From the NCBI RefSeq assembly GCF_038049935.1, contig NZ_CP145886.1, positions 2,302,501 to 2,366,500 on the forward strand: a stretch of DNA of 64,000 bases, given 5' to 3'. Positions 1,229-64,000 of the stretch are shown here, in pieces; the first letter of the stretch is position 1; each line of letters starts with the position of its first letter. Below the pieces are notes generated by a model that did not search any database, was not told the DNA's origin, and saw nothing but the letters and a program-made list of their open reading frames with translations. Source of the stretch: Rossellomorea sp. y25 (GTDB lineage Bacteria; Bacillota; Bacilli; Bacillales; Bacillaceae_B). A program made the translations under genes and the position numbers.

Positions 1229-1240
1229 AGGTCCGTCCCT
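1229..1240 (-). repeat. Dodecamer AGGGACGGACCT, copy 1
   Basis: Exact copy on the minus strand, in the space between the convergent HAD and methyltransferase genes. Identical copies occur at 32405, 32462, 33521, 36035, 58596 and 62501. Confidence 0.7.
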
Positions 1241-1278
1241 CATAGGAATAGACGTCATTTTGGTAAATGGTTTCTAAA

Positions 1279-1902
1279 TTAAATTTGTTTATTCGCCACA
1301 ATTGCAACGGTATTATACCCTCTGGAAAGGGGTCCTTCTAATAAATCAATATTTTTAAATCCCCTGACTTTCATAATAGGGATAAGTTCTTCTAATATCA
1401 TTCTTTGAATATTCGTCCAAGGTATACCGTTTTTACCGTCACTTAAAGTAATGATCAAGGAACCTCCTGGTTTCAACACTCGATATATTTCATTGATTGA
1501 GTCTTGGAAAGAGTCCCAAAAGTAAACTGATTGAATGCTATAGACCTTGGAATACATCAAGTCTTGAAAAGGAAGACTTTTAACATTTCCAAACACAAAT
1601 TCTGCACGACTATTGTTTATGTTTACTCTATTTCGAAATCTTGCGGATGCAAGTGCGGTCTGGGATAAATCAAAACCGACTACTTTGTTAACGTTTGAAT
1701 CCCTTAATGCCTTATTCACGGCATATCCAGCACCACAGCCAAGTTCCAATACACAATCGTTATCCTTCAATTTAAGCAATTCCAACGTCCACAATGTCTC
1801 AATTCTATGTTGATGAACCATTTTTTCACCAAAATAAACTCCGAGTAAACCCTTCGGTGTTCTATATTGTTCATCAACCAGAGCAATTAGTCGTTTTTTC
1901 AT
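1279..1902 (-). CDS. Class I SAM-dependent methyltransferase
   Basis: The product has 207 residues. Motif I (VLELGCGAGYAV, residues 51-62) is the glycine-rich SAM loop. An acidic end of strand 2 (VVGFDLS), a motif II-like FGNVKSLPF and the late motif IYRVLKPGGSLIIT follow in the order of the Methyltransf_11/25 families. The substrate is not predictable. AAAGGAGGAACACATTTG precedes ATG 1902; an in-frame TTG at 1905 is an alternative start. It is transcribed divergently from the broken LysR gene at 2016, the usual arrangement of a LysR regulator and its target. Confidence 0.88.
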   Translation of the reverse strand: MKKRLIALVDEQYRTPKGLLGVYFGEKMVHQHRIETLWTLELLKLKDNDCVLELGCGAGYAVNKALRDSNVNKVVGFDLSQTALASARFRNRVNINNSRAEFVFGNVKSLPFQDLMYSKVYSIQSVYFWDSFQDSINEIYRVLKPGGSLIITLSDGKNGIPWTNIQRMILEELIPIMKVRGFKNIDLLEGPLSRGYNTVAIVANKQI

Positions 1903-2015
1903 CAAATGTGTTCCTCCTTTTATATGAGTAACTAAATTATAATGTCCGATTCATTTATTACACAATACAATATAAGTTATATTTAGTATTAGTAATTCTT
2001 ATATGAGGTGAAAAG

Positions 2016-2927
2016 ATGGACCTTAATCAATTACAGGCATTCGATCATGTGGTAAGGCTCGGAAGTATCAGCAAGGCTGCGCGGTATCTCGATCTTTCTC
2101 AACCGACTATCACACTAAGAATACAGGGCTTAGAGAAGAAAGTAGGGGGCCCGCTTTTCACTCGAGTTGGAAGAACGGTTGAATTAAGTGAATTAGGAAA
2201 AGGATTTCTACCTTATGCTAGACAAGCGTTAGAATCTCTTCAAAAAGGGGTGGAAAGAGTACAGTCTATTCGAGATGGAAAGGTAGGGCACGTAATGATA
2301 GGGACTCTTCCAACCTTCACGACAGGTATATTTTCTTCATTTATACAGAAAGCACATGCATAATTTCCTGATATTTCAGTTGAAATCCACACTGGACATA
2401 ACCAACAAATCATTGAAATGCTTTATGACGGTTCCGTTAAGATGGGATTTATAACACATCCATACTTTAATACAGACTTGAATAAATATTGGATTTGGCG
2501 GGCACCTCTAAAACTTGCAGCTCATTACGCTCATCCGCTAGTTAATATGATGAAGAATAAAACTCTCTCTATTATAGATGTATTCCTGGGTAGTAAGCCT
2601 TTTATTGTGGTTGATTGGAATCACGAAAGCATTCATTGGCCAAAAGCACAGTTGCAACCTGGAACAGACTATATCGAACTACCGCCTTTAACCGCATTGG
2701 ATTTTTTGGAAAATGGAATAGGGGTTGCTTTATTAACAGAAGACATAATCTCAAAATCCGATACTATTGTTGAATTAGAAGTCGAAGAATTCCCAGGAGT
2801 AAGCAGGGAAATAGCAGTCGTCGGTTTAGTCTCAGCAGAATCATTACCAACTTCATATAATACTTTCTTAAAACTTTTAACAAAATACGTATCCAAGGAA
2901 GAATATCAATTTTTTGAAGAAGGATAA
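2016..2927 (+). pseudogene. LysR-family transcriptional regulator interrupted by an in-frame stop
   Basis: The N-terminal 115 residues are a standard LysR winged helix (MDLNQLQAFDHVVRLGSISK, then AARYLDLSQPTITLRIQGLE). The frame meets TAA at 2361-2363 just after the domain linker. The same frame then continues without a break through FPDISVEIHTGHNQQI and a full substrate-binding domain to TAA at 2925. One substitution (TAA for TAT or TAC, Tyr) explains this, so it is a recent nonsense mutation or a sequence error. As it stands only a DNA-binding fragment would be made. The start has GAGGTGAAAAG upstream. Presumed target: the divergent methyltransferase. Confidence 0.85.
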
Positions 2928-3042
2928 TATCAATTTTTCTATTAAGATTCACGATAATATGCTATGTACAAGTTATGGATATAAGCAATTGAATTTCGGT
3001 TAGCTGGCATTAATTTCATAAAAGATATTAAAATGGGAGAAT

Positions 3043-3156
3043 GAGGCTGGGACAAAAGTGTTTTAGTCTAAGTAAAACCCGAACAACCATGCCTGCTATC
3101 TAGCAGGCATGGTTGTTCGTCTTTACATCGTGGGATTTTAGTTTTATCCCAGGCTC
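3043..3156. repeat. MITE-like hairpin element, intact copy
   Basis: A 114-bp unit has imperfect terminal inverted repeats GAGGCTGGGACAAAA and TTTTATCCCAGGCTC (13 of 15 match). Inside are perfect 19-bp arms at 3080-3098 and 3101-3119 separated by only 2 nt, which would form a very stable hairpin. The second copy at 46806-47112 shares the left flank (GTGTTTTAGTCTAAGTAA.ACCCGAACAA) and the right terminus but is interrupted by another repeat. It fills most of the gene-free stretch 2928-3382; nothing else was recognised there. Confidence 0.75.
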
Positions 3157-3382
3157 ATTTTCCCTTCTATTTTTTTTAATACGTATATATTCTTCTCTGT
3201 AACTCAATAATACTCACCTCATCCAAAAGTCGTACTTGACTTTCAACCGATCTTACCATGAAGACTTTCCGATATAACCGTATATTGAAAATAAGAAAAG
3301 TATACGATTTCCCTTGAAAATATGTAGAAATTTCTTTATATTTAGTAAATATAATTTTACCAAATGTTGGAGGGTTCAACTT

Positions 3383-3658
3383 ATGAAGGACATAAAGAAA
3401 CTGTGTAACTCCATAAATAATTGTTTTGTAAGAGATGACTCTCATACTGGCAAATTACATATGGGTGAAATCGTTCACATTCTGCGTGTGAAATCTCAAT
3501 TAACACAAGAAGAATTAGCTCAGAAAGCAAACGTGTGTGCTCAAACGATTAAAAGACTTGAAGGAGGAAAGGGAAAAGTAAGTGACATCACTTGTCGATC
3601 CATATTTGAAGCACTTGGAGTGAAAATTACTTTATTAACAGAGCTTTTAGATAAATAA
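3383..3658 (+). CDS. Small XRE-family HTH regulator
   Basis: A 91-residue protein has a Cro/C1-type helix-turn-helix at about residues 28-85: MGEIVHILRVKSQLTQEELA, then KANVCAQTIKRLE and a closing helix. ATG 3383 is chosen because GGAGGG lies 8 nt upstream; the frame is open further upstream but without a ribosome binding site. There is no effector domain. The MFS transporter starts 38 nt downstream on the same strand, so the regulator may control it (inference). Confidence 0.8.
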   Translation: MKDIKKLCNSINNCFVRDDSHTGKLHMGEIVHILRVKSQLTQEELAQKANVCAQTIKRLEGGKGKVSDITCRSIFEALGVKITLLTELLDK

Positions 3659-3696
3659 AGTAACTAGATGTGTAATAGACAGAGAGAAGGAATAGT

Positions 3697-4971
3697 ATGA
3701 GATTTAGAGATTTCCATAAAAATATAAAAATACGCATAATTGAAACATTTATGAGCCGTTTTATTGGGAGTATGATTTTCCCGTTTATGTCCATCTACTT
3801 AGCTGTTCACTTTGGAGCGAAGGTGGCCGGGCTTCTACTTCTGATCAACGTGTTTGTTGGAATAGGAATCAATTTTCTTGGAGGGTACTTTGCAGATCAA
3901 TTTGGTCGGAAGAAGATCATGTTATTTGCAGAGACACTCAGGTTTCTAGCCTTTCTAACCATGATGGTTTGTAATTCTCCATGGTTTGAATCTGCACCGA
4001 TCACCTTTAGCATGATGACGATTAACAGCATTTGTTGGGGACTCGCTGGACCAGCTAATCAGGCAATGATGATTGATGTAAGTACACCCCCTCAACGAAA
4101 GCTGATGTATTCGATTACGTATTGGGCAAATAACCTGTCCATCGCGATCGGTGGAATCATTGGTGCCTTCTTATTTAAAGATTACCTGTTCGAGCTGTTC
4201 CTTGCCCTAAGTGTAGCATCTGCTGCCATAACCGCTTCATTGGTTGCCTTCTTTATTAGTGAAAGCTATGCACCAGTGAATTCTGAGCTGACACCTTCCC
4301 AACACGTTAAGCAATTAATATCAAACTACGGGAAAGTAATGCATGACAAGCTATTTGTCCTCTTTACGATCGCAGGCATTCTTATTCTATCAATGGAGTT
4401 CCAGCTAACCAATTATATCGGAATTCGATTAACCGAAGAAATGCCCTCTCAACAATTCCTTTTATGGCAAATTGACGGAGTACAGACGATGGGAATTCTC
4501 AGAAGTGAAAATACGATTCTAGTCGTAATTCTCATGTTGTTTGTGACAAGGATCCCACACTCGTTACAAGACAAAACTGTTTTAGTTTGGAGCTGCTTCC
4601 TATTCACGGTTGGGTATGCTTCTCTCGCTTATTCCAATAATTTATTTATCCTGTTCCTGATGATGAGCATTCTAACGATTGGAGAAGTATTCCGAGTGCC
4701 TGTCGAACAATCTTATATGGCTGCCATTCCACCTGACGATGCCCGTAGTTCTTATATGGCCTTCAATGGATTGAAGTTTAACTTATCCATGCTGATTGCC
4801 TCTGTGACGGTCACGCTTGGTGCAATACTACCATCAAGCATCATGGCGGGAATCATCCTTGCAATCGGTCTTGTCGGGACACTCATATTAAAGATCATTT
4901 CACCTGAATTGGATAGAAGAAAAGAAGGTGTGGAGTTGAAACAACAGGCTGATGCTGCGAAAGTAGGTTAA
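3697..4971 (+). CDS. Major facilitator superfamily transporter
   Basis: 424 residues with roughly twelve hydrophobic segments and the MFS signature between TM2 and TM3, GGYFADQFGRKKIM. The protein begins near SRFIGSMIFPFMSIYLAV, typical of DHA1-type drug or metabolite exporters. A hydrophilic central loop near residues 190-215 separates the two halves. GAGAGAAGGAATAGT gives a usable ribosome binding site. It probably follows the small XRE gene in one transcript. The substrate is unknown. Confidence 0.88.
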   Translation: MRFRDFHKNIKIRIIETFMSRFIGSMIFPFMSIYLAVHFGAKVAGLLLLINVFVGIGINFLGGYFADQFGRKKIMLFAETLRFLAFLTMMVCNSPWFESAPITFSMMTINSICWGLAGPANQAMMIDVSTPPQRKLMYSITYWANNLSIAIGGIIGAFLFKDYLFELFLALSVASAAITASLVAFFISESYAPVNSELTPSQHVKQLISNYGKVMHDKLFVLFTIAGILILSMEFQLTNYIGIRLTEEMPSQQFLLWQIDGVQTMGILRSENTILVVILMLFVTRIPHSLQDKTVLVWSCFLFTVGYASLAYSNNLFILFLMMSILTIGEVFRVPVEQSYMAAIPPDDARSSYMAFNGLKFNLSMLIASVTVTLGAILPSSIMAGIILAIGLVGTLILKIISPELDRRKEGVELKQQADAAKVG

Positions 4972-5191
4972 TGTAATGTATGGGAGGCGTGATTTTGGCC
5001 ACCTACAAGCTTCTAACAAAAGTTAACTGTAATGATGAATCTCTGTCATTACATACAGCTGTCTAAAATTTCTAGCAAATTATGAAGGTGCAAAATTGAT
5101 ATCATGGCTTAGTAGGTGCTATATTATTCTGAATAAGGTATCGATTCCAATCATACCTTTAATAGAGTTCAACTTAACGAAGGGAGAACAT

Positions 5192-5872
5192 ATGGATAAT
5201 ATATGGGAAGCAGCCATACCATCTCTATCTCAAGTTACCGTATCTTCCAATCTTAATAATGAACCTGTCACGATCCACGGTGGCGATGATAGTCTAAGAT
5301 GCATCGGTGTCGGGACGGATGCAGCGGTCTTTCAATCCATCTATGCTCCAGATTATGCATTTAAACTGTACGCCGAGGATAAAGGATCGAAAATTAAAAT
5401 AGAAGAAAAAGTGTATAATGCAATTGGAGGTTCCCCATACTTCTCAACATGCTATGCAGCTTATGACAAGTTTCTCGTTCTAAGTTACGAACAAGGGCCA
5501 ACTTTATTCGATTGTCTGCTCCAAGGAATTCATATTCCAGAACAAGCAGTTCAAGACGTGGAGGATGCTAGAAAATATGTTCGTGATCAAGGTTTGAATC
5601 CCCGTGATATCCATTTAAAGAATATATTGCTTCAAAATGGAAGAGCGAAAATTATAGATGTGTCAGAGTACGTCCTCCCTGGAAATGATTTCAGATGGGA
5701 GCATCTAAAGAAAGCATATGAGGATCATTACAACCTCATAGACGGAAAAGCCGTTCCATTTTGGTTACTTGAAACGATTCGAAAATGGTATAACTCCTGG
5801 AACAAGCATTTCACCTCCTATGAGGAATTCATGAAAATTGTGTTAAAGTTTACTTCATTTAAAAAAGACTAA
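5192..5872 (+). CDS. Protein kinase-like protein (YrzF-like)
   Basis: A 226-residue protein with a compact kinase-fold core. There is a Gly-containing N-lobe loop (GVGTDAAVFQ), a VAIK-type Lys (AFKLYA), a catalytic loop NPRDIHLKNILL with Asp and Asn in the right places, and an IIDVSEY segment where kinases carry DFG. This matches the small Bacillus Ser/Thr kinase-like family (YrzF) and RIO/Bud32-type minimal kinases. ATG 5192 has GAAGGGAGAACAT upstream; an upstream in-frame extension lacks a binding site. The substrate is unknown. A relic of a transporter follows directly. Confidence 0.72.
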   Translation: MDNIWEAAIPSLSQVTVSSNLNNEPVTIHGGDDSLRCIGVGTDAAVFQSIYAPDYAFKLYAEDKGSKIKIEEKVYNAIGGSPYFSTCYAAYDKFLVLSYEQGPTLFDCLLQGIHIPEQAVQDVEDARKYVRDQGLNPRDIHLKNILLQNGRAKIIDVSEYVLPGNDFRWEHLKKAYEDHYNLIDGKAVPFWLLETIRKWYNSWNKHFTSYEEFMKIVLKFTSFKKD

Positions 5873-5873
5873 A

Positions 5874-6014
5874 AAGCGCTCAGAGCTATTCGTGGGTGGA
5901 ATTATTGTAGACGGGATCGGGCTCATCCACACTCCATGGATCGGAAGCATCATGGTTTTAGGAGCCGTGCTGCTAACTGCTTGTTTGCATGGGTTAGAAA
6001 GAAGATCTGCTTAA
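5874..6014 (+). pseudogene. C-terminal relic of an MFS transporter
   Basis: A frame opens immediately after the kinase-like stop and ends with TAA at 6012. Its translation (start of the readable part: ELFVGGIIVDGIGLIHTPWI, then a hydrophobic helix and ERRSA) looks like the last transmembrane helix pair of DHA1-type sugar/purine exporters such as PbuE-like proteins. There is no start codon with a binding site and no N-terminal part nearby. It appears to be the tail of a gene whose body was deleted or replaced. Confidence 0.55.
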
Positions 6015-6039
6015 TGAAAAAACATCACTATTTATTGTA

Positions 6040-6066
6040 AGGCGGCATTCATTGCCGCCTCTTTCT
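6040..6066 (+). terminator. Rho-independent terminator
   Basis: AGGCGGCA-TTCAT-TGCCGCCT hairpin followed by a pyrimidine-rich tail (CTTTCT). It ends the unit holding the kinase-like gene and the MFS relic. Confidence 0.75.
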
Positions 6067-6169
6067 ATAGAAGAAAGAAAGAGAGAAATCAATTGTACAT
6101 GAAGGATCAATTTGACATAATTTATTTATGCTTCAATTTTATGTATTACAAGAATAAGGAGGGGAAACC

Positions 6170-7243
6170 ATGTGGAATCAAAACAGCGTTTCTAAAATTC
6201 TGGGCACTCACTATCCCATCATCCAAGCAGGAATGGCTGGTGGAGTCACTACTACAAATCTGGTATCTGCCGTCTCAAACTCGGGAGGATTAGGAACCTT
6301 GGGAGCAGGATATATGTCCGCTGATGATATGAGACTAGCGATCAAAGAAATAAAAGATCATACGAATCAGCCTTTTGGGGTGAACTTATTCATACCTGAA
6401 TCACCAATAGTCAATGATGAACAAATTACCAACGCCCAAAGATTAATAGAGCCTTTTAAAAAGGAATTACACCTAACGGACAACAGCTCATTTTCAGAGA
6501 TGCAAATCGATTTTGAAAAGCAGCTAGAAGTCATCTTCAATGAAAAGGTACCTGTTTGCAGCTTCACGTTCGGCGCCCCATCTAAAGAACTTGTGTTAGA
6601 GTTAAAAAAGGAAGGAACCATCGTGATCGGCACCGCGACGACTGTTGAAGAGGCAGTGATCAATGAAGAGAGCGGAGTAGACATCGTTGTCGCTCAAGGG
6701 AGTGAAGCTGGTGGGCATCGAGGCACGTTTCTAGGCTCATGTGAACACTCAATGATCGGTACCTTTTCTCTTGTTCCCCAAGTTGTGGATGCCGCAAGCA
6801 TACCTGTGATAGCTGCAGGAGGGATTATGGATGGAAGAGGCGTTATTGCAGCACTTGCTTTAGGGGCAAAAGGAGTCCAAATGGGAACTGCTTTTCTTAC
6901 ATGTAAAGAGAGTGGGGCTGGGGCTATTCATAAAAGGGTTGTTTTAGAATCATCAGAAACCCATACGGTCATCACAGCTGCCTTTAGCGGGAAACCTGCT
7001 CGAGGGATTGAAAATAGATTTACTAGGGAAATGCAGGAATTCGAGAGCCTATTACCTCCGTACCCCATACAAAATGCGTTAACGAAAAAAATGAGAAAGG
7101 AAGCTGGGAAACAAGGAAATCCAGAATTCATGTCCTTGTGGTCTGGACAAAGCCCAAGGCTTAGCAGGGATATATCTACTAAAGATCTGCTTGAATCCAT
7201 CGTAAGTCAAGTAGGAAAAACAATTGGAGAATTAAAAAAATAA
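6170..7243 (+). CDS. Nitronate monooxygenase (FMN-dependent)
   Basis: A 357-residue TIM-barrel flavoprotein of the 2-nitropropane dioxygenase/NMO family, which oxidises alkyl nitronates such as propionate-3-nitronate. Visible features are the N-terminal YPIIQAGMAGGVTTTNLVSA, the GSEAGGHRG segment carrying the conserved His, and the phosphate-binding AAGGIMDGRGV and GAKGVQMGTAFL near residues 220-245. AAGGAGGGGAAACC precedes ATG 6170. It stands alone. Some family members are annotated as FabK-like enoyl-ACP reductases, but the GGHRG motif favours NMO. Confidence 0.9.
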   Translation: MWNQNSVSKILGTHYPIIQAGMAGGVTTTNLVSAVSNSGGLGTLGAGYMSADDMRLAIKEIKDHTNQPFGVNLFIPESPIVNDEQITNAQRLIEPFKKELHLTDNSSFSEMQIDFEKQLEVIFNEKVPVCSFTFGAPSKELVLELKKEGTIVIGTATTVEEAVINEESGVDIVVAQGSEAGGHRGTFLGSCEHSMIGTFSLVPQVVDAASIPVIAAGGIMDGRGVIAALALGAKGVQMGTAFLTCKESGAGAIHKRVVLESSETHTVITAAFSGKPARGIENRFTREMQEFESLLPPYPIQNALTKKMRKEAGKQGNPEFMSLWSGQSPRLSRDISTKDLLESIVSQVGKTIGELKK

Positions 7244-7434
7244 ACATTTTCCATTTCTGTTACTACTTATAAACTCTCCATAGTCCCAATTTCACAAATC
7301 CTATTTTCCAAATATTAAACCTTGTAATCATTTCTAGCAAAGGTATAATTTTGATATAAGGAAAGCGTTTTTATATTTATCTTAAATTTTCCGAATAGTT
7401 AAAATGCATAAGGCGCGTTTTTTAGGAGGTTCAA

Positions 7435-8124: not shown

Positions 8125-8129
8125 TAGAA

Positions 8130-32404: not shown

Positions 32405-32473
32405 AGGGACGGACCTTTAAAAGTTAAAAGACGCCGATGAATGGGGATTTTGGCTTTTTAGAGGTCCGTCCCT
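32405..32473. repeat. Inverted pair of the dodecamer AGGGACGGACCT
   Basis: AGGGACGGACCT at 32405-32416 and its exact complement AGGTCCGTCCCT at 32462-32473 face each other 45 bp apart, so the transcript could fold into a 12-bp stem. The pair lies between the GNAT-fusion terminator and tatA. Confidence 0.75.
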
Positions 32474-32730: not shown

Positions 32731-32925
32731 TTACTTTAAGTCGAATATTTCAACAATGTCTTTCCACTTAATCATCATATCCCAAGAGAATCGAGGGACG
32801 GATGAGATGATGCTATTTCCGCTCATTTCTGCAGATACCAATATGGTACCGACAAAACTAAGTATGAAAAGGGAACAGAAGATGTAACAAGCAATGGATT
32901 CCTTACGATATTCATAATTTCTCAT
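32731..32925 (-). CDS. Small single-helix membrane protein (64 aa)
   Basis: MRNYEYRKESIACYIFCSLF starts a protein with one membrane helix (about 10-32) and a C-terminal part ending in WKDIVEIFDLK. The ATG at 32925 follows GAGGTGTATTCAA; the in-frame ATG five codons upstream has no such site. No family recognised. It lies upstream of tatA on the same strand, 56 nt apart, so the two could share a transcript. An AGGGACGGAT-like stretch is inside the gene (about 32794). Confidence 0.55.
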   Translation of the reverse strand: MRNYEYRKESIACYIFCSLFILSFVGTILVSAEMSGNSIISSVPRFSWDMMIKWKDIVEIFDLK

Positions 32926-33379: not shown

Positions 33380-33467
33380 AGTCACCTCACCTCCCAAGAT
33401 AATATTAAAACTAATTATATCTTATATTCCCCCGGTGTCTATAACTTCTTAAATGAATGTAAGAAGC

Positions 33468-33532
33468 ACGGACCTCCAATTGACAAAAACTTGGATAATC
33501 CGGATAGTATAGAGATATAGAGGTCCGTCCCT
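33468..33532. repeat. Second inverted pair of the dodecamer (one arm decayed)
   Basis: AGGTCCGTCCCT at 33521-33532 is an exact inverted copy. A partial partner, ACGGACCT, lies at 33468-33475, about 45 bp away as in the pair at 32405-32473. It lies in the gap downstream of guaC. Confidence 0.65.
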
Positions 33533-33586: not shown

Positions 33587-34570
33587 TTAATATACTTTGT
33601 CTCCGTTGAAAATTGAATTTTTCACTACTACATAATCTACTGTCCGGATTGCTTCAAGCTTTGTACCGCCAGCATAGGAGATAGAGGATTGAAGATCTTG
33701 TTCCATTTCGACCAATGTATGTTCCAGCGATCCTTTATGTTCAACAAACATTTTTTTACCTTCAACATTTTTCTTTTCGCCTTTTTGGAACTCTGAAGCT
33801 GATCCAAAGTATTCTTTGAATAGCTTGCCATCTTTTTCGATTGTATCTCCTGGAGACTCTTCATGACCTGCGAATAGGGAGCCGATCATCACCATGGACG
33901 CACCGAAACGAATGGATTTTGCAATATCACCGTGGGTACGGATACCCCCATCAGCGATGATTGGTTTTGTAGCGGCTTTTGCGCACCAACGAAGGGCAGC
34001 CAGCTGCCAGCCGCCTGTACCAAAGCCTGTTTTGATTTTCGTGATACATACTTTCCCTGGTCCGATTCCCACTTTTGTGGCGTCGGCACCAGCATGTTCC
34101 AATTCTCTGACAGCTTCAGGAGTACCTACGTTCCCAGCAATCACAAAGCTTTCTGGTACGTGCTTTTTAATGTGTTGAATCATGCTGATTACAGCATTGG
34201 AGTGACCATGTGCAATATCGATTGTAATAAACTCCGGTGTCAGCTTTTCTTCCGCTAACTGCTTTACAAATGCATATTCTTCTTCTTTTACTCCTACAGA
34301 GATAGAAGAAATCAATCCGCGAGCTTTCATATCTTTAATAAATGAAATTCGTTTTTCAGGCTCAAAGCGATGCATGATATAGAAATAATTATTTTCAGCT
34401 AAGTATACAGCGATTTTTTCATCAATAATGGTTTGCATATTGGCAGGAACAACCGGTAATTTGAACGTATGTCCACCCAGTGTCACACTTGTATCACATT
34501 CAGAGCGGCTATTCACCACGCATTTTGCAGGAATTAATTGAATATCTTCGTAATCAAACACATTTTCCAT
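33587..34570 (-). CDS. guaC: GMP reductase GuaC
   Basis: A 327-residue TIM-barrel enzyme of the IMPDH/GMPR family that converts GMP to IMP with NADPH. The catalytic Cys is in [17 protein letters not shown]. The N-terminal [13 protein letters not shown] and the [20 protein letters not shown] phosphate loop fit GuaC. Length matches the 326 residues I recall for B. subtilis. ATG 34570 follows AGGGGTGTAATA. Upstream on the minus strand, GGACGAACATT (34612-34622) resembles one PurR half-site, but the partner is not at the usual distance. Confidence 0.95.
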
Positions 34571-34836
34571 TATTACACCCCTAAACACGAATATTAAAGT
34601 TTGGTTGTTTTATAAATGTTCGTCCATAAGGTAATTTACATCATTTTCTTATCAATGTCAAAGATTTTTATCATTTTAAGTGAAAAGGCTTTGGATTTTG
34701 GCACAGGTATTGATTCAACAAGTATTTAAGCGTTTGCAAATAAGAGTTTAAAAACACACTGAAAGAGAGACTATGTTACAGTATAAAGAAGAAGGGCTTA
34801 TGAACAAATCTGTATAACAGTAAAGGTGGTTAAGCT

Positions 34837-35729: not shown

Positions 35730-36974
35730 TTATACAAATTGATTATTCTTTCGGAACTTCTCCATCAGGCCCTTGGCATAGAAGTTTGCTTTCCCCTCAT
35801 CTCCCTTTTCCATATAATAATCAAACAGTAATACGCCGTAATGCTCCATAGGGAGGACGTAGCCCATTTCCTGAAAGTGGGGATAGGCTTTTTCTTCCAA
35901 ATATTTATAATACCCTTTTATGTCTTCATTAACATTCAATTTGTGTAAAGTAAAGAAGTGATAGAACGTATTGTTGTTACCTTTTCGGGCCAAAGCTAAA
36001 CCTTCTTCTATGTATTGCAGTAACTCATCTTTCGAGGTCCGTCCCTCTTTGGTAAGGGCATTAATGTATCCTTCAAGTGAGCCAAGGTAGTTGGGGTCTT
36101 GGGGTTTACGGGTGTTGACGGATTTTTTGTAGTATTCGCCGGCTGACTTGAAATCGCCTTTTCTGAGCTGGTGATAGGCGTAGTTATGATGAAGAAGGGC
36201 CCTCTGGTGTTCGAGTTCGTAGTCTTCAGCCATGTCGATTAATCGTTGGTATTCTTTGTTTTCCACGTTGGAATCATCGGATTGTTCAAGTTGAAGCAGC
36301 ATCAGCATCTCTGACTCGATCATCCTGGAGAAACTGCGCTTCTCTACAAAGAATTGCAATGCCTTATTTGCATAAAAGTACGCTAGTACATTTGAATGAA
36401 TGGAATGATAGGCAACCGCTAAATCGTAAAAGCATTCGCGGTTAGAATAGTCATCCAGGCGAATTTCCTTAAGCACTGAAATGGCTTTGAAGAAATCGTG
36501 GTTTACCCTCATTAGATAAATGCCTTTTATATGCAGCAACATATTATGTTCATATGGACTAAGTCCTGACCACGTCTCCATTTCCTCAACGAGACGTTTG
36601 GCAAGCTGATTTTCCCCGGAAAATAAATGATACCGAGCGAGAATCAAGGTATACGTCCGATAGAAATCCTGGATTTGCAATAAATGAATCCCATCGAGTC
36701 GTGTCTTTATGGAATCTGCTTTTGTCTGCAGCTTCTTAATGATCGATTCGTGCCATTCTTTCAGGAGGGAATCGATACTCTTATAATTCTCTAATTCCTT
36801 TTCCATATCAATACCTAATCGTTCACTTAATAATTGGATTGTTTCCTTTGAGACCTCAGTAAGTCCTCGTTCTATTTTACTGATATGGGTAGTAGAGCAA
36901 ATCCCTTCTCCCAAATCCTTCTGTTTGACCTGTTGATGTTCGCGATAGAACTTGATAATTTTACCTTCAAGCAT
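35730..36974 (-). CDS. XRE-TPR transcriptional regulator (RRNPP-like)
   Basis: A 414-residue protein. A Cro/C1 HTH fills the first ~60 residues (IIKFYREHQQVKQKDLGEGI, STTHISKIERG). The rest is about 350 residues of helical repeats with TPR spacing (e.g. ALLHHNYAYHQLRKGDFKSA, AGEYYKKSV). This architecture belongs to the PlcR/Rap/NprR type regulators that sense secreted peptides. ATG 36974 follows GGGGATGAGATC. It is divergent from the S8 protease, its likely target. The dodecamer AGGGACGGACCT lies inside the gene (36035-36046) and encodes GRT within EGRTS. Confidence 0.85.
   Translation of the reverse strand: MLEGKIIKFYREHQQVKQKDLGEGICSTTHISKIERGLTEVSKETIQLLSERLGIDMEKELENYKSIDSLLKEWHESIIKKLQTKADSIKTRLDGIHLLQIQDFYRTYTLILARYHLFSGENQLAKRLVEEMETWSGLSPYEHNMLLHIKGIYLMRVNHDFFKAISVLKEIRLDDYSNRECFYDLAVAYHSIHSNVLAYFYANKALQFFVEKRSFSRMIESEMLMLLQLEQSDDSNVENKEYQRLIDMAEDYELEHQRALLHHNYAYHQLRKGDFKSAGEYYKKSVNTRKPQDPNYLGSLEGYINALTKEGRTSKDELLQYIEEGLALARKGNNNTFYHFFTLHKLNVNEDIKGYYKYLEEKAYPHFQEMGYVLPMEHYGVLLFDYYMEKGDEGKANFYAKGLMEKFRKNNQFV
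36035..36046 (-). repeat. Dodecamer AGGGACGGACCT inside the XRE-TPR gene
   Basis: Exact copy on the sense (minus) strand of the regulator gene, in frame as GAG GGA CGG ACC TC (Glu-Gly-Arg-Thr-Ser). Confidence 0.75.
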
Positions 36975-37232
36975 GATCTCATCCCCTTTTTGCAATCGTT
37001 CCAATTCACCCAATATTATCATAACCCCAATTAAAAATTATGTATTTACCACTTTTTCTTTAAAATAACGACGATAAATAGATCTTTATAATTATATATT
37101 GTGATTATTATTAGTTAAAAAGACTCACACAAAACCCCAATAGCTTCCGAACTGAAAGAATACTAAAATGGAATTGTACTACTATTTCGAATACTACTAA
37201 AAATCAACAGAGAAAAGAAAGAGGTAGGAATA

Positions 37233-57576: not shown

Positions 57577-57614
57577 GGAGTCGAATAAGCTTGCTCATTC
57601 GACTCCTCGATATT
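57573..57614. terminator. Bidirectional terminator
   Basis: GGAGTCGAAT-AAGCTTGCTC-ATTCGACTCC stem between the HAD gene and the convergent lipoprotein gene. Confidence 0.88.
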
Positions 57615-57615
57615 T

Positions 57616-58086: not shown

Positions 58087-58226
58087 AAGATATTCCTCCT
58101 TTTGAACTCATTATTCCCAAATAAGGAGTGGAGAAAACGAGGTAATTTGGATTAGATTTCCTATAAACCTGAGAAAAATAAAGTATACTATACTCATTAC
58201 CACTTAATCGGAGGGAGTTGTAAGTA

Positions 58227-58961
58227 ATGAATGTAAGAAAGCCAGAGGAAAGACTGCCTGCGAATGAAGCAGCTTTGAATTTTGTTCTAGAAAACTTTCC
58301 AACCTGTCAGGCAGCACTTCTTGGAGGCAGCGTTGTAAGGGGAGAGGAGACAAGCACATCCGATTTAGATATTGTCATCATTGACGATACTACTTCCTCA
58401 GAATTCCGGGAATCACTTATCGCACAGGGCTGGCCAATCGAAGCCTTTGTCCATAACTTAAAAACCATCCGAGACTATTTCCAATCAGACTGTCAACGAG
58501 CCCGCCCATCCCTGCCGAGAATGGTCTCAGAAGGAATTCCCATCGTCGATCATCGCATCATCCATACCCTCAAAGAAGAAGCAAATAAACTTTTGAGGGA
58601 CGGACCTCCAAAATGGACTATTCAGACGATCCATATGAAGAGATATTTCATTACAGATGCATTGGATGATTTTATTGGCTCAACAAATAGAGGGGAAGGT
58701 ATTTTTATTGCGGGAGCATTAGGGGAATCCCTGCATGAATTTGTACTCAGGACAAATGGTCGCTGGATAGGTGCATCGAAATGGGTTGTTCGATCCCTAA
58801 AGGAATATGATCAAGACTTTGCTGATGAATATGTAGAGGCGTTCGAACAGTTTTACCGTAATGGGAATAAACAAGAAATTGTTAGATTAGTAAATTCGGT
58901 ATTAGAACCACACGGCGGGAGATTATTTGATGGGTTTACATTAGGCAAGAATGAGGGATAA
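58227..58961 (+). CDS. Nucleotidyltransferase-domain protein
   Basis: A 244-residue protein of the DNA polymerase beta-like fold. The motif GGSVVRGEETSTSDLDIVII holds the catalytic Asp pair (near residues 46-48), the standard GG-x-DxD pattern. The rest is helical. It may transfer a nucleotide to a small molecule or protein, or be an antibiotic-type transferase. CGGAGGGAGTTGTAAGTA precedes the ATG. The dodecamer AGGGACGGACCT lies in the gene (58596-58607), encoding parts of LRDGPPK. Confidence 0.82.
   Translation: MNVRKPEERLPANEAALNFVLENFPTCQAALLGGSVVRGEETSTSDLDIVIIDDTTSSEFRESLIAQGWPIEAFVHNLKTIRDYFQSDCQRARPSLPRMVSEGIPIVDHRIIHTLKEEANKLLRDGPPKWTIQTIHMKRYFITDALDDFIGSTNRGEGIFIAGALGESLHEFVLRTNGRWIGASKWVVRSLKEYDQDFADEYVEAFEQFYRNGNKQEIVRLVNSVLEPHGGRLFDGFTLGKNEG
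58596..58607 (+). repeat. Dodecamer AGGGACGGACCT inside the nucleotidyltransferase gene
   Basis: Exact copy on the sense strand, read as TTG AGG GAC GGA CCT CCA (Leu-Arg-Asp-Gly-Pro-Pro), a different frame from the copies at 36035 and 62501. Confidence 0.75.
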
Positions 58962-58968
58962 GGATTCA

Positions 58969-59001
58969 ACTAAAAAGCCCTTCTGCTAAGAAGGGCTCAT
59001 G
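58969..59001 (-). terminator. Terminator of the second Spo0M-like gene
   Basis: AGCCCTTCT-TAGC-AGAAGGGCT on the minus strand followed by TTTTTAG; it may also serve the convergent nucleotidyltransferase gene. Confidence 0.82.
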
Positions 59002-59013
59002 ATTAAACTATCG

Positions 59014-59409
59014 TTATACTAAAATCTGAAACTCATCGTGATCGACACTGTTTACACCATCGTCAAAGACAAGTCGGGTGACGAACTTATAAGAGACTGT
59101 GTCACTACTTGGAGGAAATGAATCTGAAAGTCTGCACGAAAAGTGAATGGTGCGTTGTTCGTTTGCTTTCATCGTTGATGAGCTTAATATGGTATTGTGA
59201 TGAAGGACAGATGAGTGATCACGATTCTGATCATACTGCAAAAGGTCTGTTTCAATTCTTTTCAATTTCTGCTCAACACGTCCGCCAGTTAGTTCATATT
59301 CTCCTTTGATCACGTCCCCCGGGCGAAACTCTTTCTTATTTAATACCAAATCAATCTTTGTTGCACCTATACCGAACCTGCACATCAATTTACTGAACAT
59401 AACTGTCAT
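59014..59409 (-). CDS. Half-length Spo0M-like (arrestin-fold) protein, paralogue
   Basis: 131 residues: FGIGATKIDLVLNKKEFRPG, then YELTGGRVEQKLKRIETDLL and GVNSVDHDEF. The same single arrestin-like domain is present as in the protein at 51443, and the same truncation relative to full Spo0M. ATG 59409 lies close to GAGAGG; the ATG three codons on is possible. Solo gene with its own terminator. Confidence 0.8.
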   Translation of the reverse strand: MTVMFSKLMCRFGIGATKIDLVLNKKEFRPGDVIKGEYELTGGRVEQKLKRIETDLLQYDQNRDHSSVLHHNTILSSSTMKANEQRTIHFSCRLSDSFPPSSDTVSYKFVTRLVFDDGVNSVDHDEFQILV

Positions 59410-59744
59410 TCAACCTCTCATTCATCTAGTTACCAATTCTACGCAATTAGGAGAGCTTTGGTTTCACTTTTCTTCACCTTTTCTACGACTATATTCTAAA
59501 AGAAAAGAAGCCCTCTTGTCTATAATCCTTCTTCGACATATTTCGCGAATTTTTATAAGTATTATAGTATTTCCCAGCATCCATTCCCCACACTTTTCTC
59601 CAGAAAATGAATCATACCCCTAATGAGTATATAAATTGGAATTTGTTCCATAAAGAGGTAGAAATATAGTCTGAATTTCTATAAAATAGGACTAGAACAT
59701 TATCATATTTTGGTAAAATACTAGCTTAAGAAGGGGTCATTCAA
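59410..59744. other. Intergenic stretch without a recognised gene
   Basis: AT-rich DNA between the divergent Spo0M-like and PBP genes. TGGTAAAAT at 59711-59719 could be an extended -10 box of the PBP promoter. No repeat, hairpin or supported frame was seen. Confidence 0.45.
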
Positions 59745-61913
59745 TTGAAGGAAAAGAAGAAAAAGAAAAAAACCCATGTGCCATTGAGAATGAATCTACT
59801 GTTTATTTCGGTCTTTTTTCTATTTTCACTTCTGATTCTTCGTCTTGGGATTGTGCAAATCGTGCAGGGGAACCATTATGAAGCAGAAGTGGCGAGAACG
59901 GAAAATGTGAAATCCCATAATGGTACACCACCTAGGGGGAAAGTCTATGATCGGTATCGGAATGTAATCGTGGACAATGTACCTTTAAACGCAATCACCT
60001 ATACCAGAACACAAACGACGAAGCCCGAGGATATGCTGAAAGTAGCAAGAAATCTGGCAGAGTTAATCGAAATGAAAACAGACAAAATCACTGATCGGGA
60101 TCGGCAGGATTTCTGGCTTCTGAGTCATCCAGATAAAGCAGAAAAACTTGTTTCAGAAGATGAATTGAAGAAACTGGAAGACGATGAAGATCTTACAAAA
60201 GATGATGTGAATAAAAAGGTATACGAAATGCAGCTGGAACGGATCACCGAAAAGGATATCAAATCTTTCACCAAACAAGAAGAGGAAGTCCTGGCCATAT
60301 TCCGCGAGTTCAATACCGGCTATGCCCTCACGCCTCAAATCATCAAAAATAAAGATGTCTCCATGGAAGAAATGGCGAGAGTCAGTGAACGCCTGTCAGA
60401 ATTGCCTGGCGTGAATGTTACCACGGACTGGGAAAGAAAATATGTGAATGATAGCACGTTGAGAACGATTCTAGGAAGAGTCTCGACATCGCAACAGGGG
60501 TTGCCAAGTGAGCTTGTCAATGAATACAAAGCTCAGGGATATGCACTTAACGACCGTGTTGGAACCAGTTATTTCGAATCACAGTATGAAAACGTCCTAA
60601 AAGGTCAGAAGGAAGAAATCGAATATATCACGAAAAATGGAAGCGTCCTTGATACACAACTCGTCAGCGAAGGGCATAGTGGAAAAGACGTAGTATTAAC
60701 CATCGATCTTCAGTTGCAGAAAGAGATTGAAAAAATTGTTGAAGAAGAGCTAAGCAAACAGGCCTCCCAATACTGGGAGTCTCCATTCCTGGATCGTGCT
60801 TTTGTTGTCATGATGGATCCACACACGGGGGAAATTCTTTCCATGGTTGGAAAGAAATATGGCAAAAATGCTGATGGCAAGACGGAGATGCAGGATTATG
60901 CTCTAGGGACTTTCACTTCGGAATATGGGGTGGGCTCTGCTGTTAAGGGTGCTACCGTGTTGACGGGGTATATGACTGGAGCGTTGAATGTTGGGGAAGT
61001 ACTTTATGATGAGCCGATTAAAATAAAGGGAACGAAAGTCAAGAAATCGTGGTTTAGTGGTTCAAGATACTTGAGTGATATCGGTGCTCTAGAAATTTCA
61101 TCCAACGTTTATATGTTTAAGACGGCATTTAAAATAGCTGATGCCACTTATCGTCGTGATCAACCAATGAATATAAATCCAGAAGCATTTGATATTATGA
61201 GAAATTACTACAGCCAGTTTGGTTTGGGTGTTAAAACAGGAATTGACCTTCCAGGAGAAGTTGAAGGATTAAGAGGGACAGAGAGAATTCCAGGTAAACT
61301 CATGGACTTTGCCATTGGTCAGTACGATTTGTACACGCCCATGCAGCTGGTTCAATACGCTTCCACCATTGCAAATGGCGGCTACCGGATGCAGCCTCAT
61401 ATCATGAAGCAAATCCGCGAACCCAGTCAGGAAAGAGGGAAAGTAGGGCCTCTTCTCTATGAAAACCAATCTAAAGTTTTAAACAGGATAGATGCTACGG
61501 AAAGAGAGATACAGCAGGTCCAAAGAGGGTTTTATCAAGTCGCTCACGGAAGTAATGGTACCGCGACTAACTTTAGAAATGCAGCTTATGACGCTGCAGC
61601 AAAATCAGGAACGGCAGAAGCATTCTATTATAGCCCGGAAGAAAAAAGGCAATACGAAACATTCAATACCACATTAATCGGCTATGCCCCATACAACAAT
61701 CCGGAAGTAGCCTTTTCAGTCGTATTACCATATTCACACCAGAACAAAGATCCATACGTAAATAAAACCATCGCCAAACGGGCAATGGACAAATACTTCG
61801 AGCTGAAAAAGCAATACGAAAAAGACGGATACTTCGACTCATCAACAGAAGAAGAAGTCCGTAATGCTGATCAGCTTGAAGAAACGGAAGAACAAGAAAC
61901 ACAAGCGGAATAA
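59745..61913 (+). CDS. Class B penicillin-binding protein (PbpA/PbpH-like transpeptidase)
   Basis: A 722-residue membrane protein with one N-terminal helix (about 15-40) after a Lys-rich start. A dimerisation domain follows, with GKVYDRYRNVIVDNVPLN and a Glu/Asp/Lys-rich insert near 100-190. The transpeptidase domain has the active Ser of GSAVKGAT (SxxK near 398), SSN (near 450) and KSGT (near 621). It matches PbpA/PbpH-type elongation transpeptidases that cross-link peptidoglycan in rods. The start is TTG 59745, placed after AGAAGGGGTCATTCAA. The acidic C-tail (ETEEQETQAE) is typical. Confidence 0.9.
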   Translation: MKEKKKKKKTHVPLRMNLLFISVFFLFSLLILRLGIVQIVQGNHYEAEVARTENVKSHNGTPPRGKVYDRYRNVIVDNVPLNAITYTRTQTTKPEDMLKVARNLAELIEMKTDKITDRDRQDFWLLSHPDKAEKLVSEDELKKLEDDEDLTKDDVNKKVYEMQLERITEKDIKSFTKQEEEVLAIFREFNTGYALTPQIIKNKDVSMEEMARVSERLSELPGVNVTTDWERKYVNDSTLRTILGRVSTSQQGLPSELVNEYKAQGYALNDRVGTSYFESQYENVLKGQKEEIEYITKNGSVLDTQLVSEGHSGKDVVLTIDLQLQKEIEKIVEEELSKQASQYWESPFLDRAFVVMMDPHTGEILSMVGKKYGKNADGKTEMQDYALGTFTSEYGVGSAVKGATVLTGYMTGALNVGEVLYDEPIKIKGTKVKKSWFSGSRYLSDIGALEISSNVYMFKTAFKIADATYRRDQPMNINPEAFDIMRNYYSQFGLGVKTGIDLPGEVEGLRGTERIPGKLMDFAIGQYDLYTPMQLVQYASTIANGGYRMQPHIMKQIREPSQERGKVGPLLYENQSKVLNRIDATEREIQQVQRGFYQVAHGSNGTATNFRNAAYDAAAKSGTAEAFYYSPEEKRQYETFNTTLIGYAPYNNPEVAFSVVLPYSHQNKDPYVNKTIAKRAMDKYFELKKQYEKDGYFDSSTEEEVRNADQLEETEEQETQAE

Positions 61914-61954
61914 ATAAAAACGCAATCCTTTGCAGAAAAGGGTTGCGTTTTTAA
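61914..61954 (+). terminator. Terminator of the PBP gene
   Basis: AAAAACGCAATCCTTT-GCAG-AAAAGGGTTGCGTTTTT stem and T-run. Confidence 0.9.
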
Positions 61955-62094
61955 TTTATATCAAATGATAGTCCTCTCTAACCTACGTTCTAAAACTCCT
62001 CCAATCTGCATAACTTGAAGGGCGATTATGAAGCAATCACTCAAAAGGTCATTTCACGCTAAGGGACTATTTCCTTATTTCCGTATATTAGATT

Positions 62095-62146
62095 GACAAT
62101 GAGAATCATTTTCATTTAAACTTTGTAATTGAAAACGATTCTCACT
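62095..62146. promoter_or_regulatory. Double Fur box upstream of the siderophore gene
   Basis: GACAATGAGAATCATTTTC (62095-62113) matches the Fur consensus. A second site in the opposite orientation, TGAGAATCGTTTTCA (complement of 62130-62144), lies 15 bp further on. Two closely spaced sites predict tight iron-dependent repression. Confidence 0.85.
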
Positions 62147-62165
62147 AAAAAAAGGAGGAGCACAG

Positions 62166-64000
62166 ATGACCACTCTGTCCTCACATCAGCGAATTTTTAT
62201 AAAAGAGACCGATGTGCAAAAAATACTCAAAGAAAAGTTACCAATTTCTCAAAAACGCATTCTTCACAAACTGGTTCAAGCGATCGTTCGAGAAAAGGTA
62301 ATCGACTACACGGAGGAAACGTCAACCAATGACGTAAAATTACTATACATAAAACCCTCACACAACATAATAATCAAGGTTCCCATAAAGCATACCTATG
62401 CACTTGGACACATGGATATTGAAGATCCCATTACTATAGAAAAAGAAAACACTGTCCATTCAATCAATACTCCTTCTCAGTTAATAGAGGAATTGATCGA
62501 GGGACGGACCTCTGAATCTGGTAATCTGAAGCAACTTAAAATCGAACTGGAAAACAGTGTCACGAATGATGCTTTAGCTTTAACTGCTGAGAAGTTGAGA
62601 CGGGGAGGGAGCATAGCAGTGAGTACCCTTAGGTATTTACAGCAAGGACAATCTTCAAACGCATCATTCAGTCCATTGACGTTTTTAGAACAAATGGTCA
62701 TTGAGGGACATACCCTCCACCCTTGTTCAAAGACAAGACTTGGTTTATCGAAAAATGAAGTGATGATGTACGCTCCAGAATGGGGAAATAAGGTGGATAT
62801 CATTCCCCTTGCTATCCATAAAAGCATATCGTCATTCTCCAAAATAACCGATGGACCTTCCATGACAGACGTATTATTGAAAGATTATCCATACCTGGAA
62901 GAAGCATTCAAGGGGAATATAACCCGACTTCACCTGGTACCCGATGAATACGAGCTCATTCCCGTTCACCCATGGCAATTCGAACACACTGTAAAAAAAC
63001 ATTACAGAACAGAATTGAAACAGAAATTGCTGATCCCGATCGACACAGCGATTCCCTATCAGCCACTGATTTCGTTCCGATCATTAGCGCCAAATAATCG
63101 GACACATCATCACATTAAAACAGCACTCAATGTTCAAATGACGAGTGCCAAAAGAATCGTTTCACCGACATCCGTCAGGAACGGACCTGTTATATCAGAA
63201 ATGTTGGATACCATCTCCAAACACGACTTGGAGATAAGGAATAAAATTAACTTTCTATCTGAAAGCAGTGGAGGGCATTACCAATCCCTTCAAAAGGGAG
63301 CGTCGCTAAATTTAGAAAAAAACCTATCTGCTCTAATAAGAGAAAATCCAGAAAAGAATCTAACGAACGAGGAAATTGCTGTTCCAGGAGCCTCACTCAT
63401 AAACACCTCGCCAGTAACCGGGAAGGTGTTGGTTGTGGAACTTATTGAAGAATGGTCAAAGAGACAAAGGATTTCTACAGAGAATGCAGCTGCTCGCTTC
63501 ATTCAAAAATACGCAAGTACTTTGACCCCTGGTCTCATAAGCTTGATCGTAAAGTATGGAATCAGTCTGGAAGCACATCTCCAAAATGCACTCATTATTT
63601 TCGAAAATGGGACTCCGACGAAACTATCGATTCGTGACAATGGAGGCATTCGTATTTTAGAAGATCGGACTCGGACGTTTATCGAAAAAGGGAGAATCAG
63701 CAACGAAACCAACTTACTCACGACAGAACCATTAGATCTATATAAAATGTTCTCACATGCCGTCATTCATAATCACTTAGGAGAAATCATCGTGAGAATA
63801 ACCAAAGAGCTAAAGATTTCTGAAACTCTTCTATGGCAACAGGTTTCTGATGTCATTCAATTCACCATGGATGACTTAAAAAGCCAAGAGCTTCACAAAG
63901 AAAATGCAGCTCATTTTGAACAAGAATTATACAGTACAAGAACGTATTTAAAGTCACTGATAAAAATGAGATTATCCGATACGATCACAGAAAATATGTA
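62166..64000 (+). CDS. NIS siderophore synthetase, IucA/IucC family (3' end outside window)
   Basis: An open frame of 611 codons runs off the right edge. Family motifs are visible: EGHTLHPCSKTRLGL (ATP-loop region, near residue 180), VPDEYELIPVHPWQFEHT (near 260), KTALNVQMTSAKRIVSP (near 320) and RNGPVISEML. Towards the end, IRDNGGIRILEDR and AVIHNHLGEII resemble the C-terminal ferric-reductase-like domain. The enzyme makes amide or ester bonds between a carboxylate such as citrate and an amine. AAAGGAGGAGCACAG precedes the ATG. Two Fur boxes control it. The dodecamer is inside (62501-62512, IEGRTSE). Confidence 0.92.
   Translation, partial: MTTLSSHQRIFIKETDVQKILKEKLPISQKRILHKLVQAIVREKVIDYTEETSTNDVKLLYIKPSHNIIIKVPIKHTYALGHMDIEDPITIEKENTVHSINTPSQLIEELIEGRTSESGNLKQLKIELENSVTNDALALTAEKLRRGGSIAVSTLRYLQQGQSSNASFSPLTFLEQMVIEGHTLHPCSKTRLGLSKNEVMMYAPEWGNKVDIIPLAIHKSISSFSKITDGPSMTDVLLKDYPYLEEAFKGNITRLHLVPDEYELIPVHPWQFEHTVKKHYRTELKQKLLIPIDTAIPYQPLISFRSLAPNNRTHHHIKTALNVQMTSAKRIVSPTSVRNGPVISEMLDTISKHDLEIRNKINFLSESSGGHYQSLQKGASLNLEKNLSALIRENPEKNLTNEEIAVPGASLINTSPVTGKVLVVELIEEWSKRQRISTENAAARFIQKYASTLTPGLISLIVKYGISLEAHLQNALIIFENGTPTKLSIRDNGGIRILEDRTRTFIEKGRISNETNLLTTEPLDLYKMFSHAVIHNHLGEIIVRITKELKISETLLWQQVSDVIQFTMDDLKSQELHKENAAHFEQELYSTRTYLKSLIKMRLSDTITENM
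62501..62512 (+). repeat. Dodecamer AGGGACGGACCT inside the siderophore gene
   Basis: Exact copy on the sense strand, in the same frame as the copy in the XRE-TPR gene (GAG GGA CGG ACC TCT in effect: Glu-Gly-Arg-Thr-Ser). A near match (AGGAACGGACCT) lies at 63177. Confidence 0.75.

Follow-up and report, generated by a model that had tools for sequence, protein, structure and literature searches.

An amplified 12-letter word in Rossellomorea that accompanies a RAYT lineage and recurs within coding genes

Copies of the word in the window

The DNA considered here (the window) is a stretch of 64,000 nt from Rossellomorea sp. y25 in which AGGGACGGACCT occurs, both strands counted, as seven exact 12-letter copies; 100 dinucleotide shuffles of the window contained none. 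All seven had been listed in an earlier reading made from the letters alone (the sequence-only reading), which placed the start of the last at 62501 instead of 62500. The exact copies and the sites related to them are the following:

1229..1240 (-), single exact copy in the gap between the convergent ORFs 469-1146 (+) and 1279-1905 (-) of the mechanical ORF list
32405..32416 (+), exact left arm of inverted pair 1; exact in 5/6 relatives in the spanning alignments, G012 being off in the first letter
32462..32473 (-), exact right arm of inverted pair 1, separated from the left arm by a spacer of 45 bp
33464..33475 (+), decayed arm of inverted pair 2, with two mismatches, on the downstream side of the gene for GMP reductase (33587-34588, -)
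33521..33532 (-), exact right arm of inverted pair 2, 45 bp from the decayed arm
36035..36046 (-), exact genic copy in sense orientation, ORF 35730-37022 (-), 430 aa with an HTH_3 domain (Pfam); encodes part of EGRTS
58596..58607 (+), exact genic copy in sense orientation, ORF 58227-58961 (+) with an NTP_transf_2 domain (Pfam); encodes RDGP
62500..62511 (+), exact genic copy in sense orientation, ORF 62166-63998 (+, open at the window end) with IucA/IucC and FhuF domains (Pfam); encodes part of EGRTS
63177..63188 (+), copy with one mismatch, AGGAACGGACCT, within ORF 62166-63998

The two intergenic loci are as previously described, that is, inverted arms about 45 bp apart with one arm decayed. 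In the three relatives whose alignments cover the whole of pair 1 (G013, G010, and G014), both of its arms are exact and the spacer has diverged. In pair 2, the arm that is decayed here appears intact in G013 and G014, and the counterpart of this pair in G023 is a AGGGACGTACCT pair with a shorter spacer, directly downstream of the GMP reductase gene of that genome. Among the genic copies, that at 36035..36046 is exact in 5/5 relatives aligned and that at 58596..58607 at the corresponding place in both relatives checkable by listed coordinates (G014 and G029), and the copy at 62500..62511 is apparently inexact in the one relative checkable in this way (G014). The HTH, nucleotidyltransferase and IucA/IucC assignments of the host genes hold in Pfam; the TPR part proposed for the HTH_3 protein has no match at E 0.001. 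AGGAACGGACCT may be a chance occurrence, and a near match pointed out at 32794, the letters of which vary freely among relatives, likewise looks like chance. The window has no Rfam match at gathering scores, and a known RNA family is thereby ruled out.

Abundance and intergenic pairs

The genome of Rossellomorea sp. y25 (G000) holds 314 copies of AGGGACGGACCT in 4.63 Mb (165 + 149 by strand), far from a random count, and the word spelled backwards occurs 0 + 0 times. In a 1.2 Mb sample, 19 exact copies are genic vs a mean of 0.067 and a maximum of 2 for 60 letter-shuffled 12-mers. The window shuffles, the backwards control and the shuffled words rule out a chance word, in agreement with the sequence-only reading. 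A replication strand bias, for which it had proposed a test, is absent (49 copies on the G-rich vs 44 on the C-rich strand), and a replication-polar motif of the KOPS or chi type is thereby ruled out.

Copy number is bimodal among 36 Rossellomorea genomes, with 222-356 copies in 22 and 0-16 in 14, and falls to 0-1 in each of 25 genomes from other families. The motif-rich genomes belong mostly to one clade, so that the independent presence/absence events are few (the main clade, G030, G023, and G002/G018); the deep forks of the guaC species tree are weak.

The spread is patchy, since 30 of 60 sampled stretches of 20 kb lack an exact copy. Intergenic copies make up 67 of the 86 found in the 1.2 Mb sample and the genic share is about one quarter, these counts being approximate because the genes were called by a simple hexamer-scored ORF picker. 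A single unit folds weakly (-0.5 to -4.9 kcal/mol) and inverted pairs fold strongly (mean -34). In appearance the intergenic pairs are REP/REPIN-like; together with tandem alternating clusters at L075 and L118 they also resemble BIMEs, as such REP clusters are named. Unlike canonical REPs, AGGGACGGACCT has no GT[AG]G foot, and the unit is not a palindrome of 20-50 nt. Inverted pairs are enriched between convergent genes (12/24 vs 137/810 gaps, p = 0.0003), in line with what is described in the part of PMC3733652 consulted. The intergenic majority, the BIME-like pairs and the alternating clusters are what would be expected of an ordinary selfish REP/REPIN family, the genic copies of which would be chance occurrences or dead debris; the excess of genic copies over shuffled words speaks against it, as do the results of the following section.

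Copies within coding genes

In the 1.2 Mb sample and the window together, 16 of 22 genic copies are in sense orientation (two-sided binomial p = 0.052); the claim that the word always reads in sense within genes thus describes the three window copies and does not extend beyond them. Nine of these 22 sites have any orthologue, the other 13 having none among the sequences compared. Seven of the nine are widely exact between species while flanking bases change, and two are inexact in the one or two orthologues found. Among motif-rich genomes other than G000, the word is exact in 7/8 and 18/19 at two alkaline phosphatase sites, in 20/21 at a site in an SNF2 helicase (antisense), in 18/21 in homoserine dehydrogenase, in 9/9 in an aconitase-family gene (antisense) and in 14/15 at the gene-end site L073:17955. 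Equally kept 12-base windows number just 3-39 of 924-2814 in each such gene. A site with one mismatch, AGGGACGGACTT, is also kept (18/19).

In the aligned motif-poor genomes the genic sites are mismatched, which may reflect either loss or a word that was never gained. G023 shows its dialect in place at three of the six genic places compared (homoserine dehydrogenase, the helicase and the 6546 phosphatase, T dialect), the standard form at one and neither word at two. That part of the genic sites is not conserved suits a selfish family; the conservation of other sites amid diverged flanks and the G023 dialect in place do not, and this disfavoured reading is considered highly improbable.

Where genic sites could be aligned with motif-less congeners, a 12-base gap occurs in no row. 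Gaps are absent altogether at the site in homoserine dehydrogenase and at the first of the two in alkaline phosphatase, and at other sites some distant rows have gaps of 1-7 bases. Judged from these alignments, the alignable genic copies evidently arose by base substitution. Insertion of the 12-mer into codons, as formerly envisaged, is ruled out at alignable sites; gene conversion of longer tracts was not seen either, the 12-mer being shared and the adjoining bases differing between species. An RNA-level motif is ruled out as well, because the two mid-gene antisense sites tested are as conserved as the sense ones. The occurrence of the word in both orientations in genes, the inverted intergenic pairs and the lack of strand bias indicate a recognition site acting at the DNA level, and this behaviour supports the earlier suggestion of a protein-bound site. 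The sequence-only interpretation therefore stands as regards a non-chance, DNA-level site with REP/REPIN-like pairs and fails as regards codon insertion.

The associated RAYT gene and candidate explanations

The RAYT gene of the motif lineage lies beyond the window, at 4390410-4391048 of the Rossellomorea sp. y25 genome; its product matches PF01797 over the cut-off and has no PDB sequence match at E 0.01. HUH (NH-x-HL) and Y-I-H-x-NP motifs are present in all 23 aligned RAYT rows. AGGGACGGACCT is found within 900 bp of the lineage RAYT in 20/20 motif-rich genomes examined (including G030 and G035), a set that leaves out G017, which has a RAYT of the lineage, and G005, which has 273 copies and in which the Y1 match is just partial where the RAYT would be expected. 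Other non-IS Y1 genes of motif-rich genomes lack AGGGACGGACCT nearby in 18/18 cases examined, a subset of the Y1 genes found there. Each of 18 longer RAYT loci carries at least one copy near or within the called 5' end, and 17/18 a copy 414-649 bp downstream. Forks are weak in the RAYT trees, which were made quickly; support is 88 for the 20-row motif lineage and 82 for G023 with G002/G018. High copy number of AGGGACGGACCT accompanies this RAYT lineage.

Divergent RAYTs adjoin different words. The RAYT of G023 (57% identity to that of Rossellomorea sp. y25) has the dialect AGGGACGTACCT 97 bp upstream, with 186 copies in the genome; the related RAYTs of G002 and G018 each have two GGGACGGTTCTC words upstream (118 and 116 copies in the respective genomes); and those of G033 and G008 have GGGACTGTCCC-type words on both sides. 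In G023, G002 and G018 the word adjoining the RAYT is the amplified word of that genome. Word and RAYT thus co-vary, over few independent events.

On this basis AGGGACGGACCT is probably (roughly 0.7) a REP, the recognition unit of one RAYT, that is, of a domesticated Y1/HUH transposase related to IS200/IS605. The RAYT would bind the 12-mer as single-stranded DNA, by analogy with the E. coli RAYT, for which such binding to its word is described (PMC8266576, in part), and would have made the REPIN-like intergenic pairs by copying. Single 12-mers would be functional RAYT sites kept by selection or by RAYT-mediated drive; if single sites are functional and kept, the pair of RAYT and site would serve the cell, or spread itself, beyond moving hairpins. 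The REP papers, in the parts consulted, foresee no conserved substitution-derived genic sites.

That the word is bound by a different protein, one of nucleoid, segregation or regulation, which merely co-occurs with the RAYT, is decidedly unlikely. Constraint at the DNA level in both orientations suits any double-stranded site, and co-occurrence testing covered the Y1_Tnp and ComGC families; the word has no strand polarity, however, and its different forms beside different RAYTs would require a second partner co-varying in step.

The main rival to the RAYT reading is a DNA uptake signal like the DUS of Neisseriaceae or the USS, the uptake signal of Pasteurellaceae: competent cells would prefer word-bearing DNA, transformation would spread the word, and dialects would follow the receptor. 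Such a signal is not known from any Gram-positive genus, and this would be the first. The word resembles the 10-12-mer DUS, as presented in the consulted part of PMC3630211, in being abundant and exact, in lying within genes in either orientation, in forming inverted pairs and in having dialects that differ by a single base among related species, and the competence pilin ComGC was found in 36/36 genomes. ComGC is equally present in all 14 motif-poor genomes, however, so that its presence does not discriminate; copies are in the hundreds, patchy and RAYT-linked vs the thousands of DUS in the core genome (PMC3630211, same part); several different words adjoin RAYT genes; and the one-mismatch site AGGGACGGACTT is kept. 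An uptake signal is therefore regarded as unlikely.

A further and rather speculative proposal is that the RAYT reads hundreds of single sites, genic and intergenic, as a species watermark. The RAYT might, for example, process single-stranded DNA in transformation or recombination, alleles with the local word winning; the word would accumulate by substitution, stay letter-perfect and change dialect in place with a change of RAYT. If true, a transposase would here be driving a word through the genomes of a Gram-positive genus in the manner of an uptake signal.

Compared with REP/REPIN-RAYT systems (REPtrons), the Rossellomorea word shares amplification, inverted pairs, clusters, a place beside its own Y1 transposase gene, variation together with the RAYT and a copy number that tracks RAYT presence (as in the consulted part of PMC2817692). 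It differs in its Gram-positive host, REPtrons being described mainly in Proteobacteria, in the missing foot and weak hairpin per unit (atypical REPs without foot are mentioned for some subclasses in the part of PMC6006769 consulted), and in its genic quarter. What appears to be new here is that coding-gene copies, substitution-derived where alignable, are kept exact between species. In the open-access literature, AGGGACGGACCT, its complement and 10-mer cores retrieved no paper on bacterial repeats by title, nor did three related words among the matches listed.

RAYTs are viewed as domesticated, housekeeping-like transposases that are bound to be of some use to the host (PMC8266576 and PMC8049555, in part), with functions largely unknown (PMC6006769, in part). 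A word kept inside unrelated coding genes hints that the RAYT does a job for the host. Orthologous coding sites that are kept, mismatched without the RAYT lineage and in dialect beside a divergent RAYT would offer a direct handle on RAYT function, and environmental strains lend themselves to counts, alignments and tests of them. The findings also suggest that a genome signature resembling an uptake signal can have a partner other than a pilin.

The CGTC-tagged REPs of PMC3733652 are, in the part consulted, elements without an associated transposase, with 8-9 bp stems and a CGTC tail, the genic units of which are insertions; the AGGGACGGACCT unit has no 8-9 bp stem and is RAYT-associated, and thus falls outside that class, although its reverse complement, AGGTCCGTCCCT, does contain CGTC and genic units are reported there too.

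Copy number and spread of the 12-mer

The 12-mer AGGGACGGACCT (the word) occurs in seven exact copies in the window, as the sequence-only reading had reported with one position off by 1 base, and is absent from 100 shuffles of it. Counted genome-wide, as that reading had suggested, it reaches 165 + 149 copies in the complete genome (one contig of 4,633,006 bp, window at 2302501-2366500), with 0 for the backwards control. Across 36 genomes of the genus (G-numbers; G000 is the own genome) its count is bimodal, with 222-356 copies in 22 motif-rich and 0-16 in 14 motif-poor members, and outside the genus 25 genomes from other families of the order contain 0-1 copies each. Its inverted pair was found in at least 120 stretches of named genomes, and the 80 matches listed were all Rossellomorea or 'Bacillus sp.'.

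Other words predominate in certain genomes. G023 has 16 copies of AGGGACGGACCT versus 186 of AGGGACGTACCT, its T dialect, which ranks second among the 12-mers of a 140 kb G023 sample and occurs 0-7 times in the other 35 genomes, while GGGACGGTTCTC has 116 copies in G018, 118 in G002 and 0-46 in the other 34. The 25 commonest 12-mers of G026 and G027 (200 kb sample each) include no GGGAC word. A second repeat family, whose words include CTTATGCTTGTC and TCGAGGTCATAA, was seen in fetched stretches L067-L126 (own genome; up to 26 copies in a 1.2 Mb sample) and L137-L146 (G026).

In 60 stretches of 20 kb, divided into genic and intergenic parts by our own gene picker with approximate gene calls, there were 86 exact copies, of which 67 fell between genes and 19 within them (13 sense, 6 antisense), besides 31 one-mismatch and 59 two-mismatch copies; 60 letter-shuffled 12-mers averaged 0.067 genic (maximum 2) and 0.017 intergenic exact copies. 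The copies are clustered, with none in 30 of the 60 stretches. Together with the window the sample holds 93 exact copies, 22 of them genic, preceded by G in 71 and followed by C or T in 87, and shows no strand bias (G-rich strand 49 versus 44).

Association with RAYT genes

Y1_Tnp matches occur in 36/36 genomes at about 95 places, part of which were examined (53 loci and 8 more). A tree of 56 proteins, omitting one locus without an ORF and four IS200-like loci, groups the RAYTs (domesticated Y1/HUH transposases) of 20 motif-rich genomes, among them G030, in a single lineage (support 88) with a common gene neighbourhood as far as compared. The word lies within 900 bp of this RAYT in 20/20 of these genomes. 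Mostly, one or two copies sit no more than about 160 bp from the called start, or inside it where it was called over-long; a downstream copy, 414-649 bp from the gene, is also present in 17 of the 18 longer loci. No word was found near 18/18 other fetched Y1 genes of motif-rich genomes, IS200-like genes not counted. Outside the 20, a Y1 match is present in the equivalent stretch of motif-rich G017; G005 (273 copies) has only a partial one at the expected place (G005:C47:222460-222609). All 23 aligned RAYT rows retain intact HUH and Y...NP motifs.

Related RAYTs are accompanied by other words: the G023 gene (57% identical) by the T dialect, 97 bp upstream; the G002 and G018 genes (54 and 56% identical) by two upstream GGGACGGTTCTC words; and the G033 and G008 genes by GGGACTGTCCC-type words on either side.

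The hallmarks of REPtrons (a RAYT with its amplified unit, the REP), according to PMC2817692, are flanking of the RAYT by the word, copy number and co-variation. AGGGACGGACCT likewise flanks a RAYT, and copy number and word co-vary with it, in few independent phylogenetic events; it differs in having no GT[AG]G foot, and PMC6006769 reports atypical REPs in some subclasses. Neither main text mentions Firmicutes or Bacillus.

Some loci showed further peculiarities. In L048, L062 and L410 the upstream copy falls within an upstream-extended called reading frame, which makes the called start tentative. G032:C1:4156164-4178568 and G004:C5:181-36184, from genomes mainly using AGGGACGGACCT, hold GGGACGGTTCTC clusters around a second, longer RAYT type (~257 aa).

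Inverted pairs

Scoring a partner with at most 1 mismatch within 130 bp gave 29 inverted pairs and 45 single exact copies in sample and window. Twenty-four pairs are oriented + then -, with spacers of 4-95 bp, and five - then +. The former lie between convergent genes in 12/24 cases versus 137/810 such gaps overall (p = 0.0003). Since T runs of at least 4 within 12 bases are rare at + then - pairs (3/24 on each side), most pairs are not textbook terminators; such runs are commoner at - then + pairs (2/5 and 3/5 by side). By arrangement the pairs are putative REPINs (inverted REP pairs).

Both arms of window pair 32405/32462 are exact, and the spacer diverged, in the three relatives aligned across it (G013, G010, G014). 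The place of window pair 33464/33521, downstream of GMP reductase, is taken in G023 by a pair in the T dialect whose spacer is shorter. BIME-like rows of alternating arms occur at L075:12514-12751, L118:899-1080 and L122:18400-18699. At the gene-end site of G024 (L167) both arms bear the same change (AGGTGCGTCCCT / GGGGACGCACCT), so that their pairing is kept.

Single copies within genes

Orthologous stretches from up to 30 genomes were aligned at genic sites.

Retention of genic copies (motif-rich genomes other than G000, except window sites)
Homoserine dehydrogenase (word encodes part of EGRTF): exact in 18/21; not exact in G017, G035, G030
Aconitase-family gene, antisense: exact in 9/9
End of gene L073:17042-17977, presumably thrB from gene order: exact in 14/15
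Alkaline phosphatase, two sites: exact in 7/8 and 18/19
SNF2 helicase, antisense: exact in 20/21
Phosphatase gene, one-mismatch site AGGGACGGACTT: retained in 18/19
Window site 36035: exact in 5/5 orthologous stretches
Window site 58596: exact in G014 and G029, by coordinates alone
Window site 62500: apparently not exact in G014, by coordinates alone

The proposal that the word tolerates insertion into codons did not hold at homoserine dehydrogenase, where word-less congeners align without a gap and G001 and G020 encode identical residues with other codons. Equally well-kept 12-base windows in these genes number only 3 to 39 of 924 to 2814. Among the sequences compared, 9 of the 22 exact genic sites had an orthologue and 13 had none; the word was exact in 11/17, 24/37, 25/26, 0/2, 0/1, 7/12, 18/24, 20/29 and 5/5 stretches, motif-poor and repeated genomes included. 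Motif-poor genomes other than G023 (G001, G011, G016, G018, G020, G026, G027, G034) have 1-7 mismatches at aligned genic sites, which may reflect either decay or sites that never gained the word. At six places compared, G023 carries AGGGACGTACCT or its complement in homoserine dehydrogenase, the helicase and the 6546 phosphatase place, keeps the standard form at the gene end (left arm exact, right arm 1 letter off), and has neither word at phosphatase places 6071 and 7357.

At the sites aligned, genic single 12-mers arose by substitution, occur in both orientations, are mostly kept exact among changing neighbouring bases and in part follow the dialect. We conclude that the single 12-mer is probably a functional site, its most likely recogniser being the RAYT; selection or drive would keep the sites. 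PMC3733652 describes REPs within genes as insertions and argues that no functional constraint acts on them, whereas genic AGGGACGGACCT copies come by substitution and are mostly exact; this part of the pattern is not predicted by REP biology as described in the cited papers. Less probably, the word is an ordinary DUS (DNA uptake signal) read by a pilin. It has most formal features in common with DUS (PMC3630211), but its RAYT link, patchy spread and lower copy number speak against this.

The distant species G030 (L223:14010-14032, L427), whose homoserine dehydrogenase region shows 68% identity, shares AGGGACGGACCT and the RAYT lineage, and also an inverted pair where what looks like the same gene as at L073:17955 ends; G002 and G018 use another word.
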